From NCBI GenBank assembly GCA_026415975.1, contig JAOAFZ010000001.1:1-64000 (forward strand): a stretch of DNA of 64,000 bases. Direction: 5' to 3'. A program made the translations under genes and the position numbers. Numbering within the stretch: the first letter of the stretch is position 1; the number at the start of each line of letters is the position of its first letter. Origin of the DNA: Patescibacteria group bacterium. Lineage in GTDB: Bacteria; Patescibacteriota; Microgenomatia; UBA1406; GWC2-37-13. Positions 9,450-38,785 of this stretch are shown here, piece by piece. Under the pieces are notes generated by a model. The model was not told the origin of the DNA. It ran no database searches and worked only from the letters and a program-made list of their open reading frames with translations.

Positions 9450-10277
9450 ATGCAGATTACGATCCTAACACTCTTTCCTGACATGGTGAAACCTTTCTTT
9501 GCGGATAGCATCATAAAGCGGGCTCAGGATAAGGGTCTGGTAAGTGTCAGGGTGGTAAATTTCAGGGATTTTGCCCATGGCAGTCACCGGACGGTTGATC
9601 AGCCACCGTATGGTGGCGGGGCAGGGATGGTGCTGATGGTGGAACCAATTGTTACTGCTCTCCGGAGTCTGAATCTTGGAGGCATCGGACCCTCGGGAGC
9701 GCCAGCTACCTGCGGAATTCCGGGAACCAGAGTACTGCTCACAAGCGTAGCAGGTAGGCGGTATTCTCAGGCAGTTGCACGTGAATACGCCCGTCTGGAC
9801 CACCTTGTTCTAATTGCGGGACATTATGAAGGGGTAGATGACCGGATTTTCGATTATGTCGACGGCGGAGTTTCGATAGGTGATTATGTGATGACCGGAG
9901 GTGAGATTGCCTGTGCGGCCATTGCAGACAGCGTAATCAGGCTGCTACCGGGGGTGTTGTCCAAAGATGGTGCCACCGATGAAGAGAGTTTTTTTACAGT
10001 TACGCTCAAAGAACTCAGAAAGGCGGTGGGGCCCGATGAATATCTTGATGCACTCTCATTTCGCTTCCGGAAAGCCGGTCGCAAAGATGCCGAAGTCCGA
10101 ATTCAACTTCTTGAGTATCCGCATTATACCCGGCCCGAGGAATTTGAGGGAAAGCGTATTCCGCAGATCCTCCTGTCCGGCCATCATCGCAAGATTGCAA
10201 CCTGGCGATTACAGCAAGCATATAAACGGACACGCACTTTCCGTGCCGACCTCCTTGACAAGCTCGCACGTGAGTGA
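9450..10277 (+). CDS. trmD: tRNA (guanine37-N1)-methyltransferase TrmD
   Basis: 275 residues, slightly longer than the usual 230-250. TrmD uses SAM to make m1G37 beside the anticodon, which prevents frameshifting. Visible signatures are the start [17 protein letters not shown], the [16 protein letters not shown] loop, and the trefoil-knot region [21 protein letters not shown] followed by YVMTGGE. The extra length comes from an insertion after MVEPIVTAL and from the C-terminal tail. The gene ends in a plain TGA stop. It stands alone on the plus strand, about 100 bases before sod. Confidence 0.96.
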
Positions 10278-10347
10278 TAAAACTAGCTACAGAATGGGAC
10301 ACATGGTGAATCGGTGCGTCCCGTTCAGGATACGGTTACAATTCAAA

Positions 10348-10370
10348 AAAGATTACATATTTTAATCTTT
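10348..10370 (+). promoter_or_regulatory. palindromic operator overlapping the sod -10 box
   Basis: Inverted repeat AAAGATTA - 7 bases - TAATCTTT. The right arm contains TAATCT (10363-10368), which is six bases before the sod ATG and is the likely -10 box. A protein bound here would cover the promoter. The binding factor is unknown; a metal- or redox-sensing regulator is a reasonable guess given the target. Confidence 0.45.
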
Positions 10371-10374
10371 CGTT

Positions 10375-10983
10375 ATGGCATTTGCGGCTGCACAACCTTT
10401 AACCTTCTCTAATCGTATTTATGAATTGAAAGGCATTTCACGCAAGGCTGTTGAAGAACACCTTACGCTCTATCAGGGATATGTGAAGAAGTTTAATGAG
10501 ATCACAGAAAAGCTGGCTGGACTTACCGATACGGATTACGAGGCAGCAAACCAGACTTACTCGTTAATCCGTGAGCTGAAGGTGGAACTCACCTTCGCTT
10601 ACGGAGGCATTGTGAATCACGAAATTTATTTCGGCCATCTGGGCGGGAACGGCGAAGCTCCCACAGGAGAGCTTATGGCTCAGATCAAGAAAGATTTCGG
10701 TTCTTTTGAGAGGTATCGTCAGGATATGAAGGCGACTGCAGTTGCAGCCCGCGGATGGGTTTGGACGGCATGGAATTATCGTGATAAATGCCTCTTTAAC
10801 TATATCGGAGACGCACAGAACACTTTTCCGGTATGGAACTCGGAGCCGATCGTGGCACTGGATACATACGAACATGCCTACTTTATGGACTTCGGTGCAG
10901 CGCGGGCTAAGTACATTGATGCATTTTTTGAGAATATGGACTGGAAAGCCGTAGAACAGAACTTTAGCAGAATTCAACGCTAA
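10375..10983 (+). CDS. sodB: iron/manganese superoxide dismutase
   Basis: 202 residues, usual length. It converts superoxide to oxygen and hydrogen peroxide. All four metal ligands are visible: His29 (EEHLTLYQGY), His82 (NHEIYFGHL), Asp163 and His167 (DTYEHAYFMDFG). The active-site neighbourhood is divergent. The common HH of the KHHxxYV motif is replaced with one residue lost, and the Trp of DVWEHAYY is Thr/Tyr here. This leaves iron versus manganese use open. It lies 14 bases upstream of the ABC transporter genes. Confidence 0.92.
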   Translation: MAFAAAQPLTFSNRIYELKGISRKAVEEHLTLYQGYVKKFNEITEKLAGLTDTDYEAANQTYSLIRELKVELTFAYGGIVNHEIYFGHLGGNGEAPTGELMAQIKKDFGSFERYRQDMKATAVAARGWVWTAWNYRDKCLFNYIGDAQNTFPVWNSEPIVALDTYEHAYFMDFGAARAKYIDAFFENMDWKAVEQNFSRIQR

Positions 10984-10997
10984 CCAAAGACAGTAAT

Positions 10998-11687
10998 ATG
11001 ATACAACTCACCAATATCACCAAAGAATTCGGTCAGAAACTCGCGGTCAGGGATGTGTCGTTTACCGCAGGTACGGGCGAGATTATCGGTTTTCTTGGTC
11101 CGAATGGGGCCGGGAAAACCACAACAATGCGACTCCTGCTCGGGATCCTTACACCGACACGGGGTTCGGTAAAAGTTCTGGGACGGAACCCCGGCGAAAA
11201 CAGGGTTGGAGTAGTCCGTGATACCGGATATTTACCGGAAAATAATCCGCTGTATCCCGAAATGAAGGTGCGTGAATATCTCGGATTTATTGCAGGCGTA
11301 CGAAGAAAACCCATTCCAGAAGATCTTGCCGCAAATGTGGGTATTGATGATGTTCTGGATGTCAGGATAGAGGAACTATCGCGTGGATACAAGCAGCGTG
11401 TCGGACTCGCGGCAGCTCTCATCGGAGACCCGAAGCTGATAATCCTTGATGAACCGACTTCCGGTCTGGACCCGATTGAGCAGGATCGCATTAAAAATCT
11501 GATCCGCACAGTGGCAAAAGATAAGACCGTGATCTTTTCGACACACATTCTCTCGGAAGTAGAGGATATCGCGTCACGGTTAATCATAATTAACCGCGGG
11601 GAAATTGTGTACGACGGTAAAAAACCTGCCGGAAAGGGTTCTGTCGAAAAACTATTTAAACAGTTGGTGAGGAAAGAAAAGAAATGA
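10998..11687 (+). CDS. ABC transporter ATP-binding subunit, GldA-like
   Basis: 229 residues. Walker A GPNGAGKTT is near residue 35, the signature ELSRGYKQRVGLAAAL is in the second half, and Walker B LIILDEPTSGLDP and the switch His of STHIL follow. This is the ATPase of an ABC-2 type system. It overlaps the next gene by four bases (ATGA) and forms a three-gene set with the permease and a GldG-like auxiliary protein. In gliding bacteroidetes such sets serve gliding; elsewhere they are uncharacterised exporters, so the name indicates family only. Confidence 0.92.
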   Translation: MIQLTNITKEFGQKLAVRDVSFTAGTGEIIGFLGPNGAGKTTTMRLLLGILTPTRGSVKVLGRNPGENRVGVVRDTGYLPENNPLYPEMKVREYLGFIAGVRRKPIPEDLAANVGIDDVLDVRIEELSRGYKQRVGLAAALIGDPKLIILDEPTSGLDPIEQDRIKNLIRTVAKDKTVIFSTHILSEVEDIASRLIIINRGEIVYDGKKPAGKGSVEKLFKQLVRKEKK

Positions 11688-12385
11688 AAGCACTCTATTT
11701 TAAGGAACTTGGTTACTATCTGAAAAACCCGATCGGTTATATAGTAGTGGTACTTTTTGCTGTGTTTGCAAATTTTCTTTTCCTGAAAGATATCTTTGCG
11801 ATAGGTTCTGCCAGTATGCGCCCCTTTTTTGACATGCTGCCATGGCTGTTTATGATTTTTATACCTGCGGTCGCAATGCGGGTGTTCGCAGAAGAACGCC
11901 GTTCGAATACCCTTGAGACCTTGCTTACCCTTCCCGTTTCTGAGACGCAGATTGTTCTTGCAAAATTCTTCGGAGTAGTCACCATAGTAGTACTGGGCCT
12001 TTCATTGACGCTTGGAATCCCGATACTCCTGACAGTTTTGTCAGGGATGGCTATTCAAGAAGTGATGGTGGGCTACCTAGGAGCTCTCCTTCTTGCTTCA
12101 CTCTTTGCCGCAATTTCAATTCTGTTCTCGTCACTTACCAAAAACCAGGTAGTGGCATTCCTCTCGGCAGCTCTGGTTTTATTCTTTCTTGTCCTGTTGA
12201 ACAGTGATTTTACCTCGAATGTAATACCTCGCGAGCTATTGAACCTACTATCTCCGCTGGCCCCGGTTACCCAGTACGACAGCTTTGTTAAAGGCCTGAT
12301 CGACCTCCGTGCTGTTGTGTACATGCTCAGCTTCACCGCACTCTTTATCGGATTAACAGTTATTGATCTGGAAAAGCGCTCCTGA
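11684..12385 (+). CDS. ABC-2 type permease, GldF-like
   Basis: 233 residues with six hydrophobic segments. The N-terminal ALYFKELGYYLKNPIGYI and the cytoplasmic FAEERRSNTLETLLTLPVSE are standard for GldF/NosY-like permeases. The latter is the coupling-helix region that meets the ATPase. The ATG overlaps the stop of the ATPase gene. Substrate unknown. Confidence 0.9.
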   Translation: MKALYFKELGYYLKNPIGYIVVVLFAVFANFLFLKDIFAIGSASMRPFFDMLPWLFMIFIPAVAMRVFAEERRSNTLETLLTLPVSETQIVLAKFFGVVTIVVLGLSLTLGIPILLTVLSGMAIQEVMVGYLGALLLASLFAAISILFSSLTKNQVVAFLSAALVLFFLVLLNSDFTSNVIPRELLNLLSPLAPVTQYDSFVKGLIDLRAVVYMLSFTALFIGLTVIDLEKRS

Positions 12386-12390
12386 TGCGC

Positions 12391-12396
12391 TATAGT
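12391..12396 (+). promoter_or_regulatory. possible internal -10 box before the gldG-like gene
   Basis: TATAGT, four bases before the ATG at 12401 and just after the permease stop. It may give an additional internal start. Confidence 0.3.
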
Positions 12397-12400
12397 CATC

Positions 12401-14041
12401 ATGTCAGACTCACCCGGAAAACAGGAATTAAACAATCGTGCAACAGCTGCTTCTTCAGCACCGCGCAAAAAGCGAAGGTTTAAACTGCCGCCGTTACCGA
12501 AACTTTCGCTGACGAAATTGTTCGGATTGGCGAGGTATAACAAGCCTTATATATTCGCAATCGCTGCTGTGGCAGTTCTTGCTCTGAATATATTGATTAC
12601 CCCCTTTGCGATTCGTATCGATTTATCCAGGAATCGTGCAAATACACTCTCCGAAGGTTCCCAAAAGCTGGTTCGGGCACTGAAAAAACCTGTTACCATA
12701 ACCTTTTTTGTTTCGGATGATATTCCCACTCAGTTATTGCCGCTCAGGCAGGAAGTAAGTGACCTCCTTGCAGAGTATCGCCGGGTATCCTGGGGAAAAG
12801 TGGATATACGGGTACTCAATCCCAAGACGGACGATGACGCCCGGGAGGAGGCTGCTCAGCAGGGAATTCAGGAATTCCGCTTCTCCCAGATACAACAGGA
12901 TAAGTTTAATGTGTCAACCGGGTACTTTGCCCTGCTGGTTAGCTATGACCAGCAAAAACGACCAATTCTTAATCTAAACGATACGGCAAACCTTGAATAC
13001 AATATTACCTCAGCAATATACTCGGTAACCCGAGACCAGACGCCAAAAATAGCTATCCTCGGCGGAGAACCGAGGTTTGGCGGATTTGGACAGCAGAGTG
13101 ATCCCCTGACTCAGATTCGCCAGATTCTCCAGCAGGAATACACTCTGGAGCCTCTGAGCCTTACCGAGCCGCAGACTGAGCCTCCTGTGGAAGGAGTGCC
13201 TACTCCAACGCCGGTAGCCAAGTCAATTGACAGTGGTATAAAAACCATCGTGCTGCTTCCATCAAGAAACCCTGCGGGGTATTCTGATGTGGAGATCGAG
13301 CAACTCTCCGACTACCTGAACCGGAAGGGAAAGATTATCGCGCTCTTCGACGGAATGGGAGTGAATCAGCAGATTCTTGCAACCGAGTCAGGTTCTCTTG
13401 ATTTAGCGAACTTTGCCAAGAACTATGGAATCCAGGTGAGGCCTGACCTAGTGCTCTCCGAGTCTGCGGAAGTGGTAAACTTCGGGGGCGATGTGCAACA
13501 GTTCTTCGTTCCCTACCCATTCTGGATCCGGACCGCCGCATTCACCGGGGACTCCGGGCTTTTCTCGAATGTGGGGTATCTGAACTTTCCCTGGACATCC
13601 TCTCTCAAGGTTACAGAGACGCCAGGTATCAATACCAGGGTACTTGTACGGACTGAAACCGGCTCCTGGGTTCAGGAGGGAACGTTTACGCTTGATCCAC
13701 AAGCAGTGCTTCAGCAACGTCCGCAGAATACCGGTCAGTATGATCTGATTGCAGAGGCGGTGATAAAAGATAAAGGTACGTTGATGGTGATTCCCTCGAG
13801 CCGGTTTATTAATCCGCAATTTCTATCCAGAGAAAGCGGCAACTTGAATTTCTTTCTGAACGTTCTGAGTAACTACGCATCTGACGGTGTATTAAGTGGT
13901 ATACGCTCACGGGCGATCCAGTCATATCCGCTTCCGAATCTACCGGACGCTCAGAAAGATCTGGTAAAATACCTCGCGATGCTTGCTTTGCCGGTACTTG
14001 TAGGAGCGGGAGGAGCATTTTACCTAATCAGACGGAAATAA
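12401..14041 (+). CDS. GldG-like ABC transporter auxiliary protein
   Basis: 546 residues. A short cytoplasmic region rich in Lys/Arg is followed by a membrane helix at about 47-67. The large extracytoplasmic region begins RIDLSRNRANTLSEGSQKLVRALKKP, typical of the ABC_transp_aux/GldG family, and a final membrane helix sits at the C-terminus (LALPVLVGAGGAFYLI). A Pro/Thr-rich loop lies near residues 255-270. It completes the ATPase-permease-auxiliary set. The family is often called 'uncharacterised ABC-type transport system involved in gliding'; motility is not implied here. Confidence 0.88.
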   Translation: MSDSPGKQELNNRATAASSAPRKKRRFKLPPLPKLSLTKLFGLARYNKPYIFAIAAVAVLALNILITPFAIRIDLSRNRANTLSEGSQKLVRALKKPVTITFFVSDDIPTQLLPLRQEVSDLLAEYRRVSWGKVDIRVLNPKTDDDAREEAAQQGIQEFRFSQIQQDKFNVSTGYFALLVSYDQQKRPILNLNDTANLEYNITSAIYSVTRDQTPKIAILGGEPRFGGFGQQSDPLTQIRQILQQEYTLEPLSLTEPQTEPPVEGVPTPTPVAKSIDSGIKTIVLLPSRNPAGYSDVEIEQLSDYLNRKGKIIALFDGMGVNQQILATESGSLDLANFAKNYGIQVRPDLVLSESAEVVNFGGDVQQFFVPYPFWIRTAAFTGDSGLFSNVGYLNFPWTSSLKVTETPGINTRVLVRTETGSWVQEGTFTLDPQAVLQQRPQNTGQYDLIAEAVIKDKGTLMVIPSSRFINPQFLSRESGNLNFFLNVLSNYASDGVLSGIRSRAIQSYPLPNLPDAQKDLVKYLAMLALPVLVGAGGAFYLIRRK

Positions 14042-14048
14042 CAGATTC

Positions 14049-15479
14049 ATGATTCGCACCCGCATCGCCCCATCCCCAACCGGAGACGATATCCATATCG
14101 GCAACTTGTACACTGCCCTCATCAACTGGGCCTGGGCCAAAAAGCACAATGGCCGGTTCGTGGTTCGTATCGAAGATACAGATCGAACCCGTTATGTCGA
14201 GGGAGCCGAACAGAAAATTCTTGAATCCCTTGCCAGCTACGGCCTCAAGAACGATGAAGGTCCTGACGTTGGCGGTCCCTACGCACCTTACCGGCAAAGC
14301 GAGCGACTGGAGCTCTACAAGAGGCACGCCCTTGAGCTGGTCGAAAAAGGCAAAGCGTATTTCTCTTTTGCGACAAAATCAGAACTCGACGATCTTAAAA
14401 AACGGGCTGATACAAAGCTGATTTACCGGCAATTGCTCCGTGATGAATCTCGGGCTGCATTTACGATTGAGGATGCCAACACCCGAATTGCAGCAATGGG
14501 AGAGGGTGCTGAGTACACTATTCGATTATTGGTACCTGCCAATGTGAACATCACCTTCCATGACCTTATCCGCGGCGATATTACCATCAGCACCGACCAG
14601 ATCGACGATCAAGTACTCTTAAAAAGCGACGGCTTTCCCACCTACCATCTTGCCGTTGTTGTAGACGACGTGGCAATGCGAATTAGCCACGTAATTCGCG
14701 CTGAGGAGTGGATTGCCTCTACCCCCAAGCACGTCATGCTCTACGACGCCTTTGGCTGGGAGAAGCCTGTTTTCTGCCACGTTCCGATCCTCCGTAATCC
14801 CGACAAATCCAAGCTCTCGAAGCGAAAAAACCCTGTCTGGGCAGGCTGGTACCTCGAGAATGGGTATCTCCCCGAGGCTATGCTTAACTACCTCTCGCTC
14901 ATGGGCTGGAGTCACCCGGATCAGATCGAAGTCTTTGATCTGGCTGAATTCGTCAAGCAATTCGAGCTGAACGACCTTAGTGCCGTTGGCCCTGTCTTCG
15001 ACCCGAAGAAACTCGAATGGATGAATGGCATGTGGATCCGGAAGATCAGACCCGATGACCTTGCACAGCGACTAGTGAAATTTTACAAAGGCAGGTACGA
15101 TATTGAGTTCGTGCGCAAGACCGTCCCGCTCGTCCAGGAACGCATGCGGACACTTATGGAATATGCACCGTACGTAGAGTTCTTCTTTACCGCCCCTACC
15201 TCCATCCCAACCGAGTTCGAACTCGACATTGCCGGATTTGCCGATATCCTCCAAAAGGTCGCCGTCCGGCTCGAAGCGATCCCAGAAGACATGTGGAAAG
15301 CCGAAAAGATCGGCGAAGAGATGCAGGCTTTATGCGCCGACCTCGAGATGAAGCCGGGCAAGTTCTTTCAGATGCTGCGCGTAGTGATTACCGGAAAGAA
15401 GGTGAGTCCACCGTTAAATGAAAGTATGGAGCTTCTTGGAAAGAAAGAATGCGTTCAGCGAGTTTCCAGGCGAAAGTAG
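14049..15479 (+). CDS. gltX: glutamyl-tRNA synthetase (possibly non-discriminating)
   Basis: 476 residues. It charges tRNA-Glu, and in bacteria lacking GlnRS also tRNA-Gln. The class I motif HIGN (16-19) in PSPTGDDIHIGNLYTAL and the KLSKRKN version of KMSKS are present, as is the VVRIEDTDRTRYVEGAE segment of GluRS. The C-terminal anticodon-binding domain is complete. The gene is seven bases after the gldG-like stop and may be co-transcribed with the transporter genes. Whether it also serves tRNA-Gln cannot be seen from this window. Confidence 0.96.
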   Translation: MIRTRIAPSPTGDDIHIGNLYTALINWAWAKKHNGRFVVRIEDTDRTRYVEGAEQKILESLASYGLKNDEGPDVGGPYAPYRQSERLELYKRHALELVEKGKAYFSFATKSELDDLKKRADTKLIYRQLLRDESRAAFTIEDANTRIAAMGEGAEYTIRLLVPANVNITFHDLIRGDITISTDQIDDQVLLKSDGFPTYHLAVVVDDVAMRISHVIRAEEWIASTPKHVMLYDAFGWEKPVFCHVPILRNPDKSKLSKRKNPVWAGWYLENGYLPEAMLNYLSLMGWSHPDQIEVFDLAEFVKQFELNDLSAVGPVFDPKKLEWMNGMWIRKIRPDDLAQRLVKFYKGRYDIEFVRKTVPLVQERMRTLMEYAPYVEFFFTAPTSIPTEFELDIAGFADILQKVAVRLEAIPEDMWKAEKIGEEMQALCADLEMKPGKFFQMLRVVITGKKVSPPLNESMELLGKKECVQRVSRRK

Positions 15480-15503
15480 GATTCCCAGGTTATCTTTCTT
15501 GTG

Positions 15504-16424
15504 CTAAAGAAATGCCTCGGGAAGCTGTAGACATTTTTCTGCCGGATCACACGTATTCAGAATCTCAAGCTGATTATTCTTCGGGTAGAATCGCCATAGC
15601 CCGGTTGGTACCCCTAAAGAGAGTCCCAAAATATCCAGTTCTTCACCGTTCCAGCGGAATAATGCGGGTGCAAGATCATATGGTTTCCCTGGGGGTGAAG
15701 CCAGGCTCTGCCGGCCGAGGACTCCATTAATCGCTAGATTATACTCGATTTGTCCGGTCACCGACTTTACACGAAATGTAACCGGATATCCTGCCCCGAT
15801 ACCGAGTGAAGAAGCCATAGAGTAAGCTATCCACATTCCATCAGGGGAAAATGCGATCTCCGTAATACATTCTGGTGCGTCCAGAATGTTCTTAACAGCC
15901 CGGGTGGTAAAGTTGAAGATCATTATTTGATTCCGGCCATCACGAAAGGTAACATACGCAACCTCTGACCCGTCGACGCGATACGATGGATTACCTATAA
16001 AACTGTTACAGGGTAAGGTAAACGAGCTAGAATTGAATACAGGACTGGCGGCTTCTGTTGCGGTAAGGTCTTGAGTCCACCCTTCCAGGAGGGATACGAC
16101 CCGAACCACACCATCTTTGGCATAAGTAACAGAACTACCATCCGGGGCGAATACGTAATCTATCACGCCTCCGGAAGAAAATTCATTTTCCAATTGTTCC
16201 CGTTTGAGTGCCGGCGCGATTGCGGGGCTCGGCTCCACGGGTGTTATACCGGGTGTGGGAAGCGTGCCTAGCAGAGATGATTTTTCAGAAGTATATAGCG
16301 ATATGAGAGCAAGAACAACCACAGTGACAATTAAAACAGGAACAATAGTCTTCCAGGCGGTGAAATGACTTTCCGCGGACCGTCCCGTATCATGGTCATT
16401 TCCCCGAGATGGTGTAATGGTCAT
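15504..16424 (-). CDS. membrane-anchored TolB-like beta-propeller protein
   Basis: 306 residues. A hydrophilic N-terminus, one membrane helix (about 26-45) and a Pro-rich spacer (TLPTPGITPVEPSPAIAP) are followed by an exterior domain with WD40-like repeats of the TolB/PD40 type, such as YVFAPDGSSVTYAKDG and IAFSPDGMWIAYSM. At most four or five blades can be counted, so the propeller may be incomplete. It follows the four-helix membrane protein by three bases and is likely in one transcript with it. Its role at the cell surface is unknown. Confidence 0.75.
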   Translation of the reverse strand: MTITPSRGNDHDTGRSAESHFTAWKTIVPVLIVTVVVLALISLYTSEKSSLLGTLPTPGITPVEPSPAIAPALKREQLENEFSSGGVIDYVFAPDGSSVTYAKDGVVRVVSLLEGWTQDLTATEAASPVFNSSSFTLPCNSFIGNPSYRVDGSEVAYVTFRDGRNQIMIFNFTTRAVKNILDAPECITEIAFSPDGMWIAYSMASSLGIGAGYPVTFRVKSVTGQIEYNLAINGVLGRQSLASPPGKPYDLAPALFRWNGEELDILGLSLGVPTGLWRFYPKNNQLEILNTCDPAEKCLQLPEAFL

Positions 16425-16427
16425 GCA

Positions 16428-16883
16428 TTAGCTTCTACCGTGTTTCCGGTTTTTAGAATGCGAAGAGTGCGAAGGTCTCTCAAGGATTTTATATTTATCA
16501 GCCAGCCAGGGAACAATTATAACAACAGACATAGACACTGCGTATGCTACACTCACCGCAATTACCCGGAAGGCGGCATCATAAAATCCTGAAAGAACAA
16601 AAAGGGTGATTACCGTGGGCACGGTAAGACCCATCATGGTAAAGATATCCCGCGCAAACCGGCCGGCCTGCTGATACAGGAGGTAATAGACAATAGCGCC
16701 AACGATTGCCATCGACATTGCACTGAGTGTGACGGCACCGACTGAAGTCTCCGGATAGTATTGACCGGCAATACTTTGCGTTACGATACCAAGGAAATTT
16801 CCGACAGAAGTAGCAATAAAACCCGCGACAATTCCGACCTGAAGAGTTTTTGAAAGGTTGGGTAGGGGTGGATTATTGGCCAT
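16428..16883 (-). CDS. four-helix membrane protein of unknown function
   Basis: 151 residues with four hydrophobic segments and a basic, His/Ser-rich C-terminal tail. No family is recognised. A TATAGT box ends six bases before the ATG at 16883, which fixes the start. It is divergent from the large FecR-domain gene and first in a two-gene unit with the TolB-like protein. Confidence 0.75.
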   Translation of the reverse strand: MANNPPLPNLSKTLQVGIVAGFIATSVGNFLGIVTQSIAGQYYPETSVGAVTLSAMSMAIVGAIVYYLLYQQAGRFARDIFTMMGLTVPTVITLFVLSGFYDAAFRVIAVSVAYAVSMSVVIIVPWLADKYKILERPSHSSHSKNRKHGRS

Positions 16884-16889
16884 GCATTC

Positions 16890-16895
16890 ACTATA
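16890..16895 (-). promoter_or_regulatory. -10 box of the four-helix membrane protein
   Basis: TATAGT on the minus strand, six bases before the ATG at 16883. Confidence 0.55.
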
Positions 16896-17043
16896 ACATA
16901 AAGCATGATCGAGCTGTCAAGACACAAAAACTTCTGGAATTTCGATAAGGAACGTGTACACTACTATAATATACACATTATTTATGTACGCACAACAACT
17001 TTGATAACCAATTCAATTCTTTTCATGGGAATCAAGTTAGAGT

Positions 17044-17063
17044 AGAATGTATTTGCACATTCT
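17044..17063 (+). promoter_or_regulatory. inverted repeat upstream of the FecR-domain gene
   Basis: AGAATG - 8 bases - CATTCT, ending six bases before the -10 box. It occupies the place of a -35 element, for which I see no good match. It is a candidate activator or repressor site. Confidence 0.35.
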
Positions 17064-17068
17064 AAGGT

Positions 17069-17074
17069 TACTAT
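17069..17074 (+). promoter_or_regulatory. -10 box of the FecR-domain gene
   Basis: TACTAT, six bases before the ATG at 17081. Confidence 0.55.
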
Positions 17075-17080
17075 GGTGTC

Positions 17081-20000
17081 ATGATAAAAAAGCGAGTGCT
17101 TTCCGCTTTGTTGGTTGGTTTTGCGGTTGCAGCCCTGATCTCTGTGTCCGTATCAAATAACGCGGAAGGTCGTCCTGGTTCTGTCAAAAATCCTAACAAC
17201 GGGGACTCCGTCCCTGCTCCTATTGTTCTCGAGGTCTTCCACTCCGATGTTTTTATTCTCCGGGGAACTAGTTTGCTGACAGCTAAATCCGGCATTACGG
17301 TCCAGCAGGGTGACAGAATCGAGACCGGTCCGGAGGGACGTGCTCAGATTGTGTACCCCAACGGTACCGTAACACGGTTGGATTCCGGGACTGTAATAAT
17401 TCTCCGTAAAGCACAACTGACACCCCAGCAAATTGAGATACTAATTGAACAGGGACAGGTCTGGTCTCGGATTACAGAACTACAAAAAGATGAAATGTAC
17501 AAGACTCTCTCTAAAAATGTATCGGCGATCGTGCGCGGTACGTCTTACGGCCATTTCGTCTCGAAAAACCGGACTGACCAGATTATGACAACCAAGGGAG
17601 AAGTTTCCGGCACCTGTCTTAACGAGACACAGCGTGCAGTTATTGCACGGAACCAGAAAATTGTTTTCACCTGTGACACCGAAGAAGTATTAATTCGACC
17701 AATAAGTAGTGAAGACCGTGCATCACCGTGGGTTGCGTTCAACCTGGATCAGGATGGGATACTGCTGGATCGGTTTGGTAAGTCGACTTATAAAGATGAA
17801 AGACCTGGTCGTCAGAGTTCAGGTGAAGTCGCGGGGGCCTCCAATTTCCTCCGACGTATCAGAGATACCGCAAGCGAGGTTGTTTCTACGGTAACCACTC
17901 AGGCTTCTGAAATAGTACGATCAGTTTCGTTGGGCATAGTAGCGAGCAATACGGAAACCTCTACAGTCTCGACTTTAGGAAGTAATACCGGTCCTGGTGC
18001 AGCGTCTCCGACTACCATTCCGTCACCTGGGGCTTCTGTGACACCGAAGACAACCGGGGTCCCTGGTGCCGTTGGCAATCCATCTCCGACAAAAATACTG
18101 AATACCCCGACGCCAACCGCGAAACCGCCGCTACCTCCCTCTATACCAACCGCGACACCGACAGAGCTTCCCCCGGAGCCAACTGTACCGCCTGAGCCGC
18201 AGGCAATCGCCCGTGTAAATCCCCAAGGAGGTGCTGCCGTCAAAATTACAGACCCGAGAACAGGTACTTCGGTAATCACGAGAGAGTATACAAACATCAT
18301 CTCTGGTACAACCGTGGAAACCATGAATGGCCATGCAGAAGTTGTATTCGACCAGGGACCGAATGCGGGATGTAGTCTCGATGGTGCTGCGAATAATCGC
18401 TGTAGTATAACCCGTATTGATTCCGGTTCAAAAATAATAGTTAATGGGCAAGTTACCGAATCAAACAACACCAATATTCAAATAATTTTCGGCAGAATAT
18501 GGAATCGAGTCAAAAATCTTACTGGTACCCGGGACACCTTTCAGTCTGAGGATGTGGGTAGTCTGGAGAATGGTATGGTAGCTACCGTGCGTGGGACATC
18601 ATACGGGCATTTAATCTCGGAAGGAGATGATGAGAGAATCAATCAGATCTTTACCTTAGAAGGCAGAGTTAGCGGACGCTGTAGAAATGATAAAAATGTG
18701 CAGGAAATCAACGAGAGGAAAAAAGGGCAATTCAGGTGTCAGGATAATGCAATCAAGACTCTGATTGATGATCTTGCCAAGGTGAAGGATGAAGATCGCG
18801 CCTGGCTCCTTTATAACGCAGAACGTGATATCCCCGATATTGGTAGTAGGAATAATCCGCCGAAGATTTCGATCATCCAGCCGGAAAATAATCAGGAATT
18901 TACGTTTAAGACATCAGATGAAGCATTCATTGATCTGAAAGCAGAAATTGAAGATGATGAATATCCCTTTGGCCCGGCCCGTACATTATGGGTATGCACA
19001 CGTATGCTCAATGGAGTAAGTGTCGCTTGTCCGTTTAACTTTGATGATGTATCAAGCACGGAAACTACTGCTAAAGTCTTTGACGATGGCCAGTACATTT
19101 TCCGGCTTGTAGCAACAGATGTTCTTGCTACAACTCTTGAGGAGGTAACAGTGAACGTAAAGATTGAGGCGAATGCATACAAACCGCCGGTCGCGAATGC
19201 TGGTCCGGATCAGGTAATTTTTCTCGACGAGACAGCCCAGTTGTTCGGAACAGTAACCTATGGTCCGCTTAACCATACCCGTGTGTTAATTAACTCATGG
19301 ACTCTAGTTCGGGGGCCGTTTCCGCTCGTCCATTTCGGGACTCCCATCTCGGTTAATACACTTTCGCCTACCACAACGGCTCAGTTTCTTTTTACGGGTA
19401 CGTACACCATCCGACTTACCTCTATTGATGGTTTGAATGTGGGTACCGATGATGTTCAAGTGGTGGTGCTCCCACGACCTGCTGTGGCAACCGCCACTCC
19501 CACTCCCACTCCTTCGCCGACTCATACTCCAGTGCCGAGTCCCACGGCTACAATAACGCCATCACCATCGCCATCACCATCACCTTCACCATTACCGTCT
19601 CCAGCCGCAACAGTCGAGCTTTCCAGCGATCTTTCCACTGCCAAGCTTCGAGTAACTAATCTGAGCGATCATTTCTCTGTTCTAAAGTACCTATTTACCT
19701 ACACTTCAGATTCAGGCGATCAGGGCATACAAGGACAGAAGTCACCATTGGAAGGAGAAATTTTTGAAGAAACTGTAACTCTGGGCACCTGTTCCTCCGG
19801 AGTATGTACCTATCACCTGAACCCGAGGAACTTTATTTTTGAAGTTGAATTGCAGTCTGCTAAAGGAGAAGAAAAACTGCGTTTAATCGCACCGGCATCT
19901 GATGTTACGACCACGCCCACGCCTACCCCAACAAACATGCCTACGAACACGCCGACCCCCATGCCGACAAGCACTCCCACTTCTACCCCGACCCCCACGC

Positions 20001-32320: not shown

Positions 32321-33643
32321 ATGAAACAGTCAAACCTGTATGGCGAGCAGACACGCATGGCAGTCAACAACTTTCCCTATCCGGTGCATCCGGTACGCCG
32401 TGAGCTTATATACGCTATTGCTGAGGTAAAAAAAGCGGCAGCGATTGCAAATTTACGTGCCGGGAATCTGGATGAGTCGAGAGCGCAGGCGATTGCCAAA
32501 GCGGCCGATGAAGTTTCGGCAGGAATGCACGACGAGCAGTTCATTACCCCCTCGATACAGGGTGGAGCCGGAACTTCTATGCACATGAATGTGAACGAGG
32601 TTTTGGCAGCCCGTGCAGAACAGATCCTTCGCCGTAAAGGAATTTCGGTAAAGGTACATCCCAATGATCATGTTAACATGTCGCAGTCTACCAATGACGT
32701 TAACCCCAGTGCTCTCAGAATTGCTACGATCCGATTGGGATGTGATTTGATTGCTACTATAGGTCAGCTTACGGCTGCACTGCGCAAAAAAGCGGATGAG
32801 TTTGCGGGTGTCAAAAAGCTTGCACGGACGCATATGCAGGACGCGGTTCCGACCACCCTTGGCGCGGAGTTCCGTTCATATGCCGATATTGTCGCCCGGA
32901 ATCAACGCCGGATCGAGGAAGCGCTCGCATATCTCTACGAGCTGAATCTGGGAGGGACAGCAATCGGAAACTCTATAAACGCAAGCGAGGCATATCGTGA
33001 GCATGTATACTATGAATTGCAGAAGATCGTCAAAATTCCTGTCTGTCCTGCAGAAAACATGATGCCGGGCACGAGCAGCGGACAGGATTTCTGCCATCTC
33101 TCCGCCACACTCACCATCATGTCAACGGACCTGTCAAAGATATCCACAGATATCCGCTTTCTCTCCAGCGGGCCCCGAGGTGGTATCGGGGAGATACGTC
33201 TCAAAGCATTGCAACCGGGTTCTTCGATTATGCCCGGCAAAGTAAATCCGGTCATCCCCGAAAGTATGAATCAGATTCATTATTATATTTCAGGAAAGAA
33301 CCTGACGATCCACCAGGCTGCAGAAGGTGCCCATCTGGAACTTGGTATTATGTTCCCGGTCATTGCAGACAGTATTCTTTCTCAACTTACCGTGCTGAAT
33401 GCAGGAATTGCCGCATTTACCGAGAACTGTATCCTGCCAATGGAAGCAGACACGCAGCGTTGCAGCAAACTCCTCGAAGAATCGTCGGCTTATGCCACCC
33501 TGCTCACACCGGAGCTTGGGTACGACACAGTATCCAGGGTGGTCAAGAAAGCAATAGAAACAAAAAAGACTATCCGCGAAACCCTAGTTGAGGACGGGTT
33601 GATTGATCAAGATAGATTTGACCGTATTGTTAGCATTTTATAA
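32321..33643 (+). CDS. aspA: aspartate ammonia-lyase (aspartase/fumarase superfamily)
   Basis: 440 residues. Aspartase splits aspartate into fumarate and ammonia. The [15 protein letters not shown] segment follows the aspartase pattern (QxGAGTSxxMNxNEV) rather than the fumarase QTGSGTQSNMN, and [15 protein letters not shown] is the superfamily signature with the catalytic serine loop. It is slightly shorter than E. coli AspA (478). It is the first gene of an operon with pflB, pflA and the VKOR-PyrD fusion; pflB starts four bases after its stop. Fumarase activity is not excluded. Confidence 0.88.
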
Positions 33644-33647
33644 TCCT

Positions 33648-35843
33648 ATGAAAAGAACTATCGATGTCGGCGCCTTTGTCAGCAAACACATACGTCCCTA
33701 TGATGGTGACGAATCATTCCTTTCCGGGCCTTCCGAGAAGACCCGGAAACTTTGGAAGATCTGTGTTTCTCTCTTTAAGAAAGAGCGCGAAAAAGGAGGA
33801 ATACTTGCGGTAGATACCAAAACGATCTCTTCTATTACCAGTCATTCCCCAGGTTATATTGACAAGGAACTCGAATGCATTGTCGGACTTCAGACCGATG
33901 CGCCGTTGAAACGGGCAATAAAACCTTTCGGCGGAGTACGCGTAGTAGAGCAGGCCTGTGCAGAAAACGGGCTCAAGCTTGACCCTTCAGTTTCGAAGCT
34001 TTTCCGGACGTACCGGAAGTCACATAATGACGGTGTTTTTGATGTTTATACCGACGAAATGCGTCTTTTCCGTTCTACCGGCCTTCTTACAGGCCTCCCC
34101 GACAACTATGCCCGCGGCCGGATCATCGGAGACTACCGTCGGGTGGCGTTATACGGCACCGATGTCCTGATTCAGGCTAAAAAAGATGATCTGCGTAAAC
34201 TTGATGGCCCGATGTCTGATGAGCGCATTCGGCTGCGGGAAGAGGTTAGTGAACAGATACGGGCTCTTTCCCTGATGGCCGAAATGGCTAAAGGATATGG
34301 TTTTGATATTACAAAACCTGCCCGTAATGCCAAAGAGGCTGTTCAGTGGACGTATTTTGCGTTTCTGGCCGCACTTAAAGAGCATGATGGTGCCGCAATG
34401 TCTCTCGGCAATGTGAGTAGCTTTCTGGATATATTTATCGAACGGGATTTATCCAGAGGAATTCTGACAGAAGAAGAAGCGCAGGAACTTATCGATCATT
34501 TCGTCATGAAGTTGCGGCTTGTACGCCATCTTCGCATGGATGAGTATAATAAACTGTTTTCCGGAGATCCGACCTGGTTGACAGAATCAATCGGCGGGAT
34601 GTTTCGCGACGGTAGGCACAAGGTAACAAAAACCTCATATCGTTTCCTTCAGACACTGTATAATCTCGGGCCGTCTCCCGAGCCGAATCTCACCGTGCTC
34701 TGGTCTCCGCGGCTTCCTCTGGCCTTTCGCCGGTTTTGTGCGAAGGTATCGGTAGACACGTCTTCGATTCAGTATGAGAATGATGACCTGATGCAGGAGT
34801 GCTCCGGCTCCGACGATTATGGCATTAGTTGCTGCGTTTCCCAGTTAAAAACCGGGAAACAAATGCAGTATTTTGGTGCCCGCTGTAACCTTGCCAAAGC
34901 GCTCCTGCTGGCAATAAATGCCGGAAGAGATGAGCACACCGGGAAAATGCTGGTGCCTGAGATTCAACCCCTTCCGGATGGTCCACTTGATTACCAGGAA
35001 GTAATGAAGCGATTTCGTGTCGTTATGGCTCATGTAGCGCGCACGTACGTAAACACGATGAATGTCATACATTACATGCATGACAAGTACTATTACGAGC
35101 GGGCTCAGATGGCATTACTTGATACTGATGTAGAACGGGTGATGGCATTTGGTATTGCCGGTCTTTCGGTTGTTGCGGACTCATTGTCAGCGATCAGATA
35201 CGCCAAAGTAACTGCAGAACGCAATGAGGAAGGCTTAAGCATTGCGTTTACCGCCGATGGAGAGTTTCCATGCTTCGGGAATGATGATGACCGTGTTGAT
35301 CTAATAGCCCGTGAGCTGGTTGTTCAATTTATGGAAGAGCTGCGGAAACATCATGTATACCGTAATGCAACACCCACCCTCTCGATACTTACAATTACCT
35401 CCAATGTAGTATACGGGAAAAAAACCGGAGCTACTCCGGATGGCAGGGCAGCAGGCGAACCATTTGCACCCGGTGCGAATCCAATGCACGGGCGCGATAC
35501 GCATGGGGCGATTGCATCTTTAAATAGTGTTACTAAGCTGCCTTATGAGTTTGCACGTGACGGGATCTCCAATACATTTTCAGTCGTGCCCAAAGCATTG
35601 GGTTCCGATCGGGAGGAGCAGATTTCCAACCTGGTCGCACTAATCGACGGCTACTTCATTAAAAAGGCACAGCATTTAAATGTCAACGTTTTGAGCCGTG
35701 ATATTCTGATGCGTGCTATGGAACATCCCGAAGAGTATCCGCAGCTGACTATCCGGGTTTCAGGGTACGCCGTAAACTTTATAAAGTTGACGAGGGAGCA
35801 GCAACAGGAAGTACTGTCGCGCAGCTTCTTCGAACACATGTAA
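33648..35843 (+). CDS. pflB: pyruvate formate-lyase
   Basis: 731 residues from the ATG at 33648. A longer frame into aspA exists but is not a plausible start. The enzyme turns pyruvate and CoA into acetyl-CoA and formate without oxygen. The adjacent active cysteines in GISCCVSQL and the glycyl-radical motif [10 protein letters not shown] with Gly706, 25 residues from the end, agree with E. coli PflB rather than diol dehydratases. The activase follows two bases later. The acetyl-CoA could feed the mevalonate operon. Confidence 0.94.
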
Positions 35844-35845
35844 GC

Positions 35846-36583
35846 GTGGGTACCCTTCCGCTCAAGGTTCACTCGTTTGAATCTCTCGGCACGCACGAAG
35901 GGCCGGGAATCAGGCTCGTCGTGTTTTTGCAGGGATGCCACCTGCGCTGTTTGTACTGCCACAACCCTGACACCTGGCATCTGGAGGGTGGTACCTTCGT
36001 TATGCCGGAAGAAATCCTGACAATGCTGGAAAAAGAGCGGCCGTATTTTTCTTCCGGAGGGGGCTTGACAGTGTCCGGGGGTGAACCGCTTATACAGCGC
36101 CATGCTCTTTATGACCTTTTTTCTATGGCCCGCAAGGCCGGATTCAATACCGCTCTCGATACCAACGGCGCGATTCTGGACGATGCAACTAGAAATCTCT
36201 TAACTGAGACCGATTTGGTACTTCTGGATCTAAAAGATGTTCGTGAAGAGCATCATAAAAAACTAACCGGCGTATCAAATTATGTTCCCCTCGCTTTTGC
36301 AGATTACCTGGAGAAAATCGGGAAGCGATATTGGGTACGTCATGTACTGGTTCCCGGCTACACCTTGCAGCCTGAGCACCTGCATTTACTTGGGAGGCGG
36401 CTAGCCGGCCGAAAGGCGCTTGAGCGCCTGGAGATTTTACCGTACCATACCTATGGAGTCTATAAATATAAAGAACTCGGTATTCCTTATCAGTTGTCAG
36501 GTCTGCAGCCGCCCGGCCCCGAACAGGTAGCGGAAGCGAAGCAGATCCTGCAGCAGTACATTCCTGATGTCCGTATTCGCTAG
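35846..36583 (+). CDS. pflA: pyruvate formate-lyase activating enzyme
   Basis: 245 residues, GTG start. A radical-SAM enzyme that forms the glycyl radical on PflB. The 4Fe-4S ligands Cys31, Cys35 and Cys38 lie in CHLRCLYCHNPDTW, and TVSGGEPL is the SAM-binding GGE motif. There is no extra ferredoxin insert, so it is the short PflA type. The start is two bases after pflB. The 3' end overlaps the next gene by 17 bases, which implies translational coupling. Confidence 0.95.
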   Translation: MGTLPLKVHSFESLGTHEGPGIRLVVFLQGCHLRCLYCHNPDTWHLEGGTFVMPEEILTMLEKERPYFSSGGGLTVSGGEPLIQRHALYDLFSMARKAGFNTALDTNGAILDDATRNLLTETDLVLLDLKDVREEHHKKLTGVSNYVPLAFADYLEKIGKRYWVRHVLVPGYTLQPEHLHLLGRRLAGRKALERLEILPYHTYGVYKYKELGIPYQLSGLQPPGPEQVAEAKQILQQYIPDVRIR

Positions 36584-38123
36584 TGCCTTGGTATCACTAC
36601 TGCTTGCATTGACTGGTCTGGCGGATTCGGCATACCTGACCTGGGAACATTTTAACCCGTCTCCGATTCCCTGTAGTGATCTGCCGTTCACCAATTGCGG
36701 CGCAGTTCTCTCCAGTGATTATGCCATGGTGTTCGGGATTGTACCTCTTGCAGTTCTCGGAGTGCTATATTACGCAACATTTGCGGTATCAGCTCTCGTG
36801 TACCTGATCAGACCACGCATTGTATTGCTTCGTTGGCTTTTTCTCTTGAGTAGCGCGGGATTTCTGGCATCCCTGTGGTTCGTTTTCTTACAACTTGTAG
36901 TAATCAAAGCGATCTGCATCTACTGTATGATCTCGGCAGTAACTAGTTGTGCGCAATTTCTCTGGTTACGAATTACCCGCTTCCATGAGTACCGGCTGAC
37001 TATAATTTTCGTGCTCGGATTTACCTATCGCCATCTAGTAAAAAGGATCTTTTTTCTGATTGACCCGGAGTATATTCACCACGTTCTTACCGGATTCGGC
37101 GAACTTCTAGGCGCAATCCGGCCGGTTAAGGCGGTACTGCGTATCATTTTGGGAACCCGGTATCCTGTACTGGAGCAGGTCGTTGCTGGGATTACTTTTC
37201 ACAGTCCGGTAGGACTCGCAGCTGGATTTGATTATGAAGCAAAGCTGACACAGACTCTGGAGCCGCTCGGTTTCGGTTTTCAGACAGTAGGAACCATTAC
37301 TAATCAGCCCTGCGAGGGCAATCCTAGACCACGTCTCGGACGGCTTCCCATGTCCCGTTCTTTACTGGTGAACAAAGGGTTCAGGAATCCGGGGGCGAAG
37401 GCAATAATCAGGAAATTACGAAAGCAGTCTTTTCCAATTCCTCTTGGAGTGAGCATCGGTACTACAAATTCATCTTCCATAACGACATTAGAAGAGGCAG
37501 TGGATGATATTATCAGCGCATTCCAACTCTTTGAGGCATCGAAAGTTCAGCACGCGTACTACGAACTTAACATCAGCTGCCCAAATCTTCAGGTAGGTGT
37601 TTCGTTTTATGATACAGGACATCTTGATACACTGCTAACTGCACTGGACAAACTCAAGCTTAAAAAACCCGTATTCGTAAAAATGCCGATCGAACTTGAT
37701 GATGCGCCCTTTATTGCGCTCCTGGATGTAATCGTAACGCATTCACCGGCAGGTGTCATTATCGGAAATCTATTAAAAAACCGCAAGGATAAGGCACTTC
37801 GCCGTGAAGAAGTACGTAAGTGCGGCAAAGGTAACTTCAGCGGCAAACCTACTGAATCCCGATCAAATGAACTGATACAGCTTTCATACACGCACACCGG
37901 AGGGAATATGATAATTATCGGTTGTGGTGGAATCTTCAGCGCAGATGATGCGTATCGGAAAATTACGCTGGGTGCTTCACTGGTTCAGTTAATTTCGGGT
38001 ATGATATTCCAGGGTCCGCAGCTAGTTTCCGAGATCAATGCGGGGCTCGTGGAGCGCCTGCGGAAAGATGGTTATATTTACATTTCAGAGGCAGTAGGCA
38101 CCAGGGCTACCAAGAAGAAATAA
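36567..38123 (+). CDS. fusion of VKOR thiol oxidase and dihydroorotate dehydrogenase
   Basis: 518 residues in one uninterrupted frame. Residues 1-140 are a four-helix VKOR domain with the loop cysteines Cys36 and Cys44 and the active CxxC pair Cys117/Cys120 (CIYC). VKOR passes electrons from new disulfides to quinone. Residues about 150-505 are PyrD with a class 2-like N-terminal helical segment (DPEYIHHVL), SPVGLAAGFD, and the FMN phosphate site GCGGIFSADDAYRKITLGASLVQ. The catalytic base position in NISCPN is Cys338, as in class 1 enzymes; class 2 enzymes have Ser. The Lys of the AAGxDK motif is also replaced (AAGFDY). PyrD oxidises dihydroorotate to orotate in pyrimidine synthesis. The electron acceptor here is uncertain. 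Confidence 0.88.
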   Translation: MSVFASALVSLLLALTGLADSAYLTWEHFNPSPIPCSDLPFTNCGAVLSSDYAMVFGIVPLAVLGVLYYATFAVSALVYLIRPRIVLLRWLFLLSSAGFLASLWFVFLQLVVIKAICIYCMISAVTSCAQFLWLRITRFHEYRLTIIFVLGFTYRHLVKRIFFLIDPEYIHHVLTGFGELLGAIRPVKAVLRIILGTRYPVLEQVVAGITFHSPVGLAAGFDYEAKLTQTLEPLGFGFQTVGTITNQPCEGNPRPRLGRLPMSRSLLVNKGFRNPGAKAIIRKLRKQSFPIPLGVSIGTTNSSSITTLEEAVDDIISAFQLFEASKVQHAYYELNISCPNLQVGVSFYDTGHLDTLLTALDKLKLKKPVFVKMPIELDDAPFIALLDVIVTHSPAGVIIGNLLKNRKDKALRREEVRKCGKGNFSGKPTESRSNELIQLSYTHTGGNMIIIGCGGIFSADDAYRKITLGASLVQLISGMIFQGPQLVSEINAGLVERLRKDGYIYISEAVGTRATKKK

Positions 38124-38134
38124 TTTATTTTCGG

Positions 38135-38785
38135 TTATACTCCAAGCAACATTTCTTCAAGTTTTTCGAGGTTGTTAACAATTATGCAACCCTCTTGAAT
38201 AGTAATCAGATTCTCATTTTCAAGTTTTTTTATCTCGCGGCTGAAAGTTTCGCGAGATGTGCCCGATAACGTAGCCAGATCTTTATGCGTAATACGAAGC
38301 GGTATCCGAGTTCCCCCAGGTGTTGGTTCGCCAAACCGGTATGCGGCATTCAGGATGGTATATACAACCTTCATCGTGGCACTTCCGGTAAGAGCATACT
38401 CCAGCCGCAGCAATAGACCGTCGGTTCCACGGTAAACCCTGGAAAGCAGGTCAAGCAGGATTTCCGGCTTGCGGCTGATGTATTGAATCACGTCAGCCCC
38501 CGGCGCCAGTCGATACGAAACCGGAGTGATTGCTACGAAATAATACCGGTTTTTTGTTTCATTCAAAATTAAAGACATCGGAAAGTAGGCGAACGGCTTA
38601 AACAGGTTTACGGTTACTTCTTCACCCTTCCGGGTAATTGCATACTCCCGGACGATACCACTGGTTAGATAGATAATTCCAGGTGGAGCGTCGCCGGCAT
38701 GAATGAGCGTTGTGCCTTTTTCTTTTGAATACTCCGGATAGCGGGAGAAAAAGATATCTAGCTGTGAAACGATATCCGGTTTCAT
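38135..38785 (-). CDS. Crp/Fnr-family transcription regulator
   Basis: 216 residues. A cyclic-nucleotide-binding-type beta barrel (about 20-110) is followed by the long dimer helix and a winged helix (about 150-215). The recognition helix TSRETFSREIKKLE contains Arg178, Glu179 and Arg183, the equivalents of the three residues with which E. coli CRP reads GTGA half-sites. The pocket differs from CRP: the Gly-Glu pair is Pro-Met (FPMSLIL) and the Arg-Ser pair is Arg-Tyr. Only one cysteine is present, so it is not an Fe-S Fnr. The effector may be cAMP bound differently, another ligand, or none. It lies 12 bases from the end of the convergent VKOR-PyrD gene and is divergent from ldhA. Confidence 0.9.
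   Translation of the reverse strand: MKPDIVSQLDIFFSRYPEYSKEKGTTLIHAGDAPPGIIYLTSGIVREYAITRKGEEVTVNLFKPFAYFPMSLILNETKNRYYFVAITPVSYRLAPGADVIQYISRKPEILLDLLSRVYRGTDGLLLRLEYALTGSATMKVVYTILNAAYRFGEPTPGGTRIPLRITHKDLATLSGTSRETFSREIKKLENENLITIQEGCIIVNNLEKLEEMLLGV

Follow-up and report, generated by a model that had tools for sequence, protein, structure and literature searches.

The window, i.e., the whole stretch of 64,000 nucleotides of Patescibacteria DNA that was analysed, encodes a protein in which a VKOR is joined in one chain to a flavodomain of the dihydroorotate dehydrogenase (DHODH) type. We tentatively read this protein as a thiol-oxidising membrane VKOR that is hard-wired to a cytoplasmic, DHODH-derived flavoprotein and whose electrons pass to an acceptor other than orotate, a reading to which we would give a little less than an even chance. 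The fusion suggests a disposal route for disulfide-making electrons that operates without respiration. The gene and its neighbours are arranged as follows:

33603..35843, + strand: pflB, pyruvate formate-lyase (TIGR01255, 1134 bits), ending 2 nt before pflA
35846..36583, + strand: pflA, pyruvate formate-lyase activating enzyme (TIGR02493, 279.7 bits), upstream of the fusion gene and overlapping it
36567..38123, + strand: VKOR/DHODH-like fusion gene, 518 aa, overlapping the pflA 3' end by 17 nt
38135..38785, - strand: CRP/FNR-type regulator (PF13545 and PF00027), convergent with the fusion gene

The fusion frame starts with ATG and contains zero internal stops, and none interrupts positions 36980-37050, where the two domains meet. 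These features and the profile matches given below confirm the initial annotation, which had described a four-cysteine VKOR and a PyrD-type domain in one open frame. A missed stop or frameshift between the domains was considered and is excluded by the one-frame fusions kept in many genomes: among 116 relatives examined, the same architecture was found in 33 other genomes at roughly 50% identity (in 32 over nearly full length, and additionally in G006 as a single ORF). It also occurs in Woesebacteria RIFCSPHIGHO2_01_FULL_39_32 (MGGJ01000001, L034), Pacebacteria CG_4_10_14_0_8_um_filter_42_14 (PFLP01000009, L039) and the unclassified MAG DBS2-1.bin136 (L036), the named records suggesting that the window's genome lies near Woesebacteria, and more distant versions are present in other families (G405 in f34, G118 in f37 and G122 in f41). 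Thus, the VKOR-DHODH fusion is old and conserved. The earlier statement that no enzyme of this kind had been described agrees with the open-licence literature searched, in which no paper on such a fusion was found.

The VKOR half and its connection to the flavodomain comprise the following features:

36591..36962, + strand: VKOR domain with a four-transmembrane (TM) core (PF07884, residues 9-132; AlphaFold2 helices; charge pattern)
36672..36716, + strand: predicted extracytoplasmic loop with C36 (36672-36674), C44 (36696-36698) and S50 (36714-36716)
36915..36926, + strand: CxxC of TM4, C117 and C120 (CIYC), invariant in 17 fusions
36978..37052, + strand: inter-domain join, where TM4 runs on into helix 139-162 (pLDDT >90)

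The PF07884 match reaches 90.6 bits against a cut-off of 27.5, and C36, C44, S50, C117 and C120 are unchanged in 17/17 aligned fusions. When an alignment of proteins from the window and from relatives' contigs was supplied to AlphaFold2, the full fusion was modelled as one well-defined unit (pLDDT 93.2, pTM 0.89), with helices 3-28, 59-81, 85-113 and 118-137 forming the VKOR TM core. Helix 139-162 follows directly after TM4 (118-137) and is succeeded by the DHODH membrane helices, with no disordered linker between the domains in this model. Positive-inside charges in the 17 fusions mark the N-terminus, the TM2-3 loop and the post-TM4 segment as cytoplasmic, which places the cysteine loops outside and the flavodomain inside. 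As predicted by charge pattern and model together, both VKOR cysteine pairs are extracytoplasmic and the flavodomain is cytoplasmic.

Paired cysteines are expected to give proteins even cysteine numbers. In the window's genome, even and odd counts stand at 80:17 among exported proteins versus 152:140 among cytoplasmic ones (OR 4.3, P=5e-8), as counted in crude ORFs from 1.22 Mb of this one genome (the window and L275-L333) that were split by hydrophobicity and limited to proteins of >=120 aa with 2-11 Cys; the Trp, Met, His, Gln and Tyr counts of the same protein sets show no comparable parity bias. The fused VKOR is the sole VKOR found in this genome (a 1.31 Mb assembly), although a few relatives hold a second one besides the fusion (G002, G051, G058 and G043). 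The window's genome also encodes two N-terminally anchored DsbA-like proteins, whose motifs are CPAC and CPFC, and a rough filter over 93% of this genome gave no convincing DsbB candidate. Collectively, the parity bias, the single VKOR and the two DsbA-like proteins indicate that the VKOR half most likely runs in the oxidising direction, and both the DsbA-like partners and the cysteine parity fit its putative oxidation of a DsbA-like protein.

The second half carries these features (E. coli numbering for the reference positions; canonical, class 2 DHODHs):

37026..38102, + strand: class-2-type DHODH-like flavodomain, residues 154-512, with membrane-binding N-terminal helices and barrel
37233..37235, + strand: Y223, aligned with the orotate/FMN lysine K66; all 20 fusions have Y and all 19 canonical sequences K
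37368..37370, + strand: V268, aligned with the orotate contact N111; of 20 fusions, 19 have V and one has A, and all 19 canonical sequences have N
37578..37580, + strand: C338, aligned with S175, the catalytic base; all 20 fusions have C, and 18 of 19 canonical sequences have S
37770..37772, + strand: L402, aligned with T247; all 20 fusions have L and all 19 canonical sequences T

By profile, this half looks like PyrD: it matches DHO_dh (PF01180) over residues 202-498 with 180.9 bits against a cut-off of 27, TIGR01036 (pyrD_sub2) over residues 156-512 with 240.5 bits against an equivalog cut-off of 200, and NF003652 with 293.9 bits against a cut-off of 267, the remaining PRK05286 models scoring below cut-off. 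Likewise, its top Foldseek match is the class 2 DHODH of M. tuberculosis (PDB 8ofw; TMt 0.96, rmsd 1.7). The pocket was compared by aligning 20 fusions with 19 canonical class 2 sequences, including E. coli PyrD. For some positions, residue roles in this alignment follow the human contact residues Lys100, Asn145, Ser215, Asn212 and Asn284 (PMC12197698). The other roles are general background on the family. Besides the four listed positions, N139, T245 and Y318 are replaced in 20/20 fusions (by S, G and I, respectively), and one of the 19 canonical sequences has a Cys base as well. N172, N177, K217, N246, G268, G297 and R102 are kept in the 20 fusions; despite the altered pocket, the tunnel R102 and positions that contact FMN, among them K217, G268 and G297, are thus retained. 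The loss of the orotate contacts K66, N111 and T247 in all 20 fusions suggests that the fused domain resembles PyrD but is probably no longer PyrD.

The initial annotation had tied the fusion to pyrimidine synthesis, a claim that the altered pocket, the presence of a separate PyrD and the fusion genomes without PyrB above cut-off all speak against. In the window's genome, a separate 360-aa PyrD that keeps the K, N, NxxCPN and NT motifs is encoded on another contig, divergently from pyrC. The pyr operons of G036, G059, G060, G043 and G010 hold their own PyrD, and that of G058 holds PyrD and PyrK, with the fusion located elsewhere in each case. Aspartate transcarbamoylase (PyrB) scores over the family cut-off in 21 of the 40 family genomes that carry the fusion whole or in pieces and does not in the other 19, and no pyr gene adjoins the fusion in the neighbourhoods examined. 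We think it quite unlikely that the flavodomain is a genuine quinone-dependent DHODH that works in pyrimidine synthesis and is joined to VKOR, even though its TIGR01036 score exceeds the cut-off, the fusion is weakly associated with PyrB (21/40 vs 8/32, P=0.03, kinship ignored) and Cys-base class 2 DHODHs are active in anaerobic fungi (PMC8520639). A role as genuine PyrD is further favoured by the PyrB-bearing G019, G030, G046 and G064, in which, as in G068, no other PF01180-type PyrD was found. The pyr clusters of G019, G030 and G068, however, contain an SdhA/FrdA-like gene, so the missing second PyrD supports the fusion as PyrD only weakly; G046 and G064 have PyrB and yielded neither another PyrD nor an SdhA/FrdA-like gene, and the contigs there are indecisive. 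With the pocket residues lost and a dedicated PyrD elsewhere, the fusion as a true PyrD was rejected as the main reading. At the other extreme, the flavodomain could be catalytically silent and do no more than anchor VKOR to the membrane from the cytoplasmic side or act as its scaffold, in line with an ancestral substrate pocket that is kept in part only. This we regard as highly improbable, because across the family the flavodomain is more conserved relative to the window protein (about 49-60% identity) than the VKOR half (about 35-46%) and has numerous positions without any variation, the acid/base Cys among them.

The SdhA/FrdA-like flavoprotein that occurs in the pyr cluster of PyrB genomes in which no PF01180-type PyrD was found is closest to TfrA and is a candidate non-homologous replacement for PyrD. 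It was observed at four loci:

L198 (G019), 15041-18721: SdhA/FrdA-like gene with an SdhB-like FeS subunit, adjoining dihydroorotase
L199 (G030), 10190-13191: SdhA/FrdA-like locus
L202 (G068), 513-2192: SdhA/FrdA-like locus
L215 (G100), 10215-13411: SdhA/FrdA-like locus

AspA-like genes also lie within the pyr clusters of G059, G060 and G019, where they possibly supply fumarate to a class-1 PyrD.

In a tree of 93 domains, 18 canonical class 2 sequences fall on one side of a branch with support 100/99, and on the other side fused and standalone DHODH-like forms are intermixed. The VKOR label requires at least 11 changes across this tree, which implies separations or repeated joinings of the halves and shows that these can exist apart. 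Like the fusions, the standalone relatives, from Patescibacteria and DPANN, have V, C and L at the N111, S175 and T247 positions, respectively, and at the K66 position 14 have K and 8 have Y. The wider family lies by membrane and envelope redox proteins and not by pyr genes: unfused relatives adjoin NDH-2-like, Fer4_5, DsbD-like/glutaredoxin, DoxX, cupredoxin or BacA genes, these neighbours being picked and mostly single cases, with the exception of three fusions to PAP2. In the latter (G330, G388 and G413 of f82; L236, L237 and L238), the chain begins with a PAP2-family phosphatase and continues into the altered DHODH-like domain; the phosphatase was identified by profile in L236 and by sequence motif in L237 and L238. 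Additionally, a DHODH-like gene begins 3 nt past a Fer4_5 membrane protein in a Woesearchaeota contig (L052, 210-2849), and in Saccharibacteria (L053, 9773-12915) such a gene is followed by one small gene and then an NDH-2-like oxidoreductase.

The immediate surroundings of the fusion vary. In the window, an AspA/FumC-like lyase and then pyruvate formate-lyase and its activase precede it (32321-36583), an arrangement that was discarded as a general link to the fusion since it occurs in the window alone; correspondingly, pflB does not adjoin the fusion in the relatives' neighbourhoods. Because this context is confined to the window, fumarate as the acceptor of the flavodomain is a guess. A conserved operon as a clue to the substrate was likewise rejected, as the adjoining genes differ and the recurring NUDIX (12/85 genes adjacent to f1 fusions) and PNPOx-like (4/85) genes point to no substrate. 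PNPOx-type split-barrel genes were observed within 25 nt of fused or unfused DHODH-like genes at four loci:

L034, 11516-11977: PNPOx-type gene adjoining a DHODH-like gene
L051, 9505-9972: PNPOx-type gene adjoining a DHODH-like gene
L140, 4384-5244: PNPOx-type gene adjoining a DHODH-like gene
L145, 8735-9202: PNPOx-type gene adjoining a DHODH-like gene

Both parent families are quinone-reactive, as the initial annotation had stated in calling the halves normally quinone-reducing. The shared quinone pool that it proposed fares less well, for no outlet was identified. Searches for heme-copper and bd oxidases found none in 116 genomes, with positive control searches, and thus no quinol oxidase of these types; in the window's genome, no FrdA/SdhA-type FAD_binding_2 match was found. 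Two UbiA-family proteins are encoded there, and taking them as a sign of quinone synthesis was rejected, given that their best matches are non-quinone models: for one, decaprenyl-phosphate phosphoribosyltransferase models below their cut-offs; the other is a prenyltransferase beside carotenoid genes. A carotenoid-type cluster in the same genome (L207, G000:C10, 989-5279) comprises a CrtI-family desaturase, a phytoene/squalene synthase-like protein, a polyprenyl synthase and a UbiA-family prenyltransferase. CPR bacteria have been described as chiefly fermenters that lack an electron transport chain (PMC5220378). The CxxC+4 residue of VKOR is required for quinone binding (PMC11208910) and is Ala in the fusion, but several standalone VKORs also have Ala, so that a fusion-specific loss of quinone binding was dismissed.

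Our proposal for how the fusion works is a single-chain conduit that leads electrons of outside thiols through VKOR and the repurposed flavodomain to a soluble cytoplasmic acceptor, replacing the respiratory chain as a sink; we hold this as possible and somewhat doubtful. DsbA-like proteins, having formed disulfides in exported proteins, would hand electrons to the VKOR cysteines, and VKOR would pass them to a lipid-soluble carrier, either a scavenged quinone or another lipid. A carrier is assumed because, judging from the topology, the distance from FMN to the outer CxxC would be too great for direct transfer. The carrier would then reduce an FMN putatively bound by the flavodomain, which has kept the helices that bind the membrane, the tunnel arginine, the acid/base cysteine and most of the positions in contact with flavin; both the nature of the carrier and this direction of flow are presumed. 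Finally, FMN would deliver the electrons to a cytoplasmic acceptor other than orotate. The thiols of DsbA lie at about -120 mV. The FMN of ordinary DHODHs lies below this, at -242 to -330 mV (PMC8520639), and electrons would therefore have to move against the potential on their way from thiol to FMN if the changed pocket did not lift that of the flavin. Our guess is that the replaced positions around the flavin, N139, T245 and Y318, could do so. Against this reading also stand the halves' ability to exist apart, as seen in the tree, and the second VKOR of a few fusion genomes.

This low potential of DHODH-bound FMN (PMC8520639) would agree with electrons moving the other way, i.e., the flavodomain oxidising a cytoplasmic substrate and, through the carrier, driving VKOR in reverse to reduce extracytoplasmic disulfides in the manner of DsbD/CcdA. 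Such an export of reductant is also in line with an unfused relative in G111 that adjoins a glutaredoxin/DsbD-like protein and a rhodanese, yet we consider it unlikely, as the even-cysteine bias of the exported proteins indicates net oxidation of the envelope and the fused VKOR is the only one found in the window's genome. We find it equally improbable that the halves reduce one quinone pool independently, the flavodomain drawing on a non-pyrimidine substrate, so that the fusion merely co-localises them. Descent of both from quinone reductases speaks for this parallel arrangement, and the PAP2 fusions of three f82 genomes suggest that partners of the flavodomain are swappable; it is at odds with the lack of detected oxidases in 116 genomes and of FrdA/SdhA and quinone-type UbiA in the window's genome, though quinones may be scavenged or exchanged.

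The proposed thiol-to-acceptor conduit can be compared with several described systems. Bacterial VKORs (Mycobacterium, Actinomyces and cyanobacteria, with DsbA/MdbA as partner) share the 4-TM core, the two cysteine pairs, the topology, a Ser six residues past the second loop Cys and the presence of DsbA-like partners in the genome, but they end there or continue into an outside thioredoxin or DsbA, whereas the C-terminus of the fusion enters a cytoplasmic flavodomain. VKOR-DsbA and VKOR-thioredoxin fusions, such as the clostridial VKOR-DsbA (PMC12453122), likewise combine VKOR with a redox partner, which lies outside the membrane and upstream in electron flow, in contrast to the cytoplasmic flavoprotein on the opposite side described here. 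Class 2 DHODH (PyrD) shares the fold with N-terminal membrane helices, most FMN-contact positions and the tunnel arginine, and differs from the fused domain, in which K66, N111, N139, T247 and Y318 are replaced, the base is Cys and a separate clade is formed (100/99). The Cys base and the anaerobic setting recur in SjUra9 and ArUra9 of anaerobic fungi (PMC8520639), which are working DHODHs, whereas the fused domain has also lost substrate contacts (the fungal sequences being compared by description only). The DHODH-like dihydrouracil oxidases of moulds (PMC10395836) offer a case of a DHODH fold with another activity in hosts that keep another DHODH, but these enzymes are class-1A-like and use O2.

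What VKOR does in fermenting anaerobes that have neither oxidases nor quinone synthesis is a standing question; its presence in clostridia has been called 'intriguing' for this reason, and scavenged quinones have been proposed (PMC12453122). Dozens of such genomes are now seen to encode a VKOR in one chain with a cytoplasmic flavoprotein, and in one of them the exported proteins show a clear disulfide signature, making the electron route testable with one protein. Additionally, the wider DHODH-type family, which is common across Patescibacteria and extends to some DPANN archaea, is scored as PyrD by standard models but is probably not PyrD; pathways reconstructed automatically for these groups may thus be wrong. 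If true, the conduit would let non-respiring, quinone-poor bacteria form disulfide bonds.
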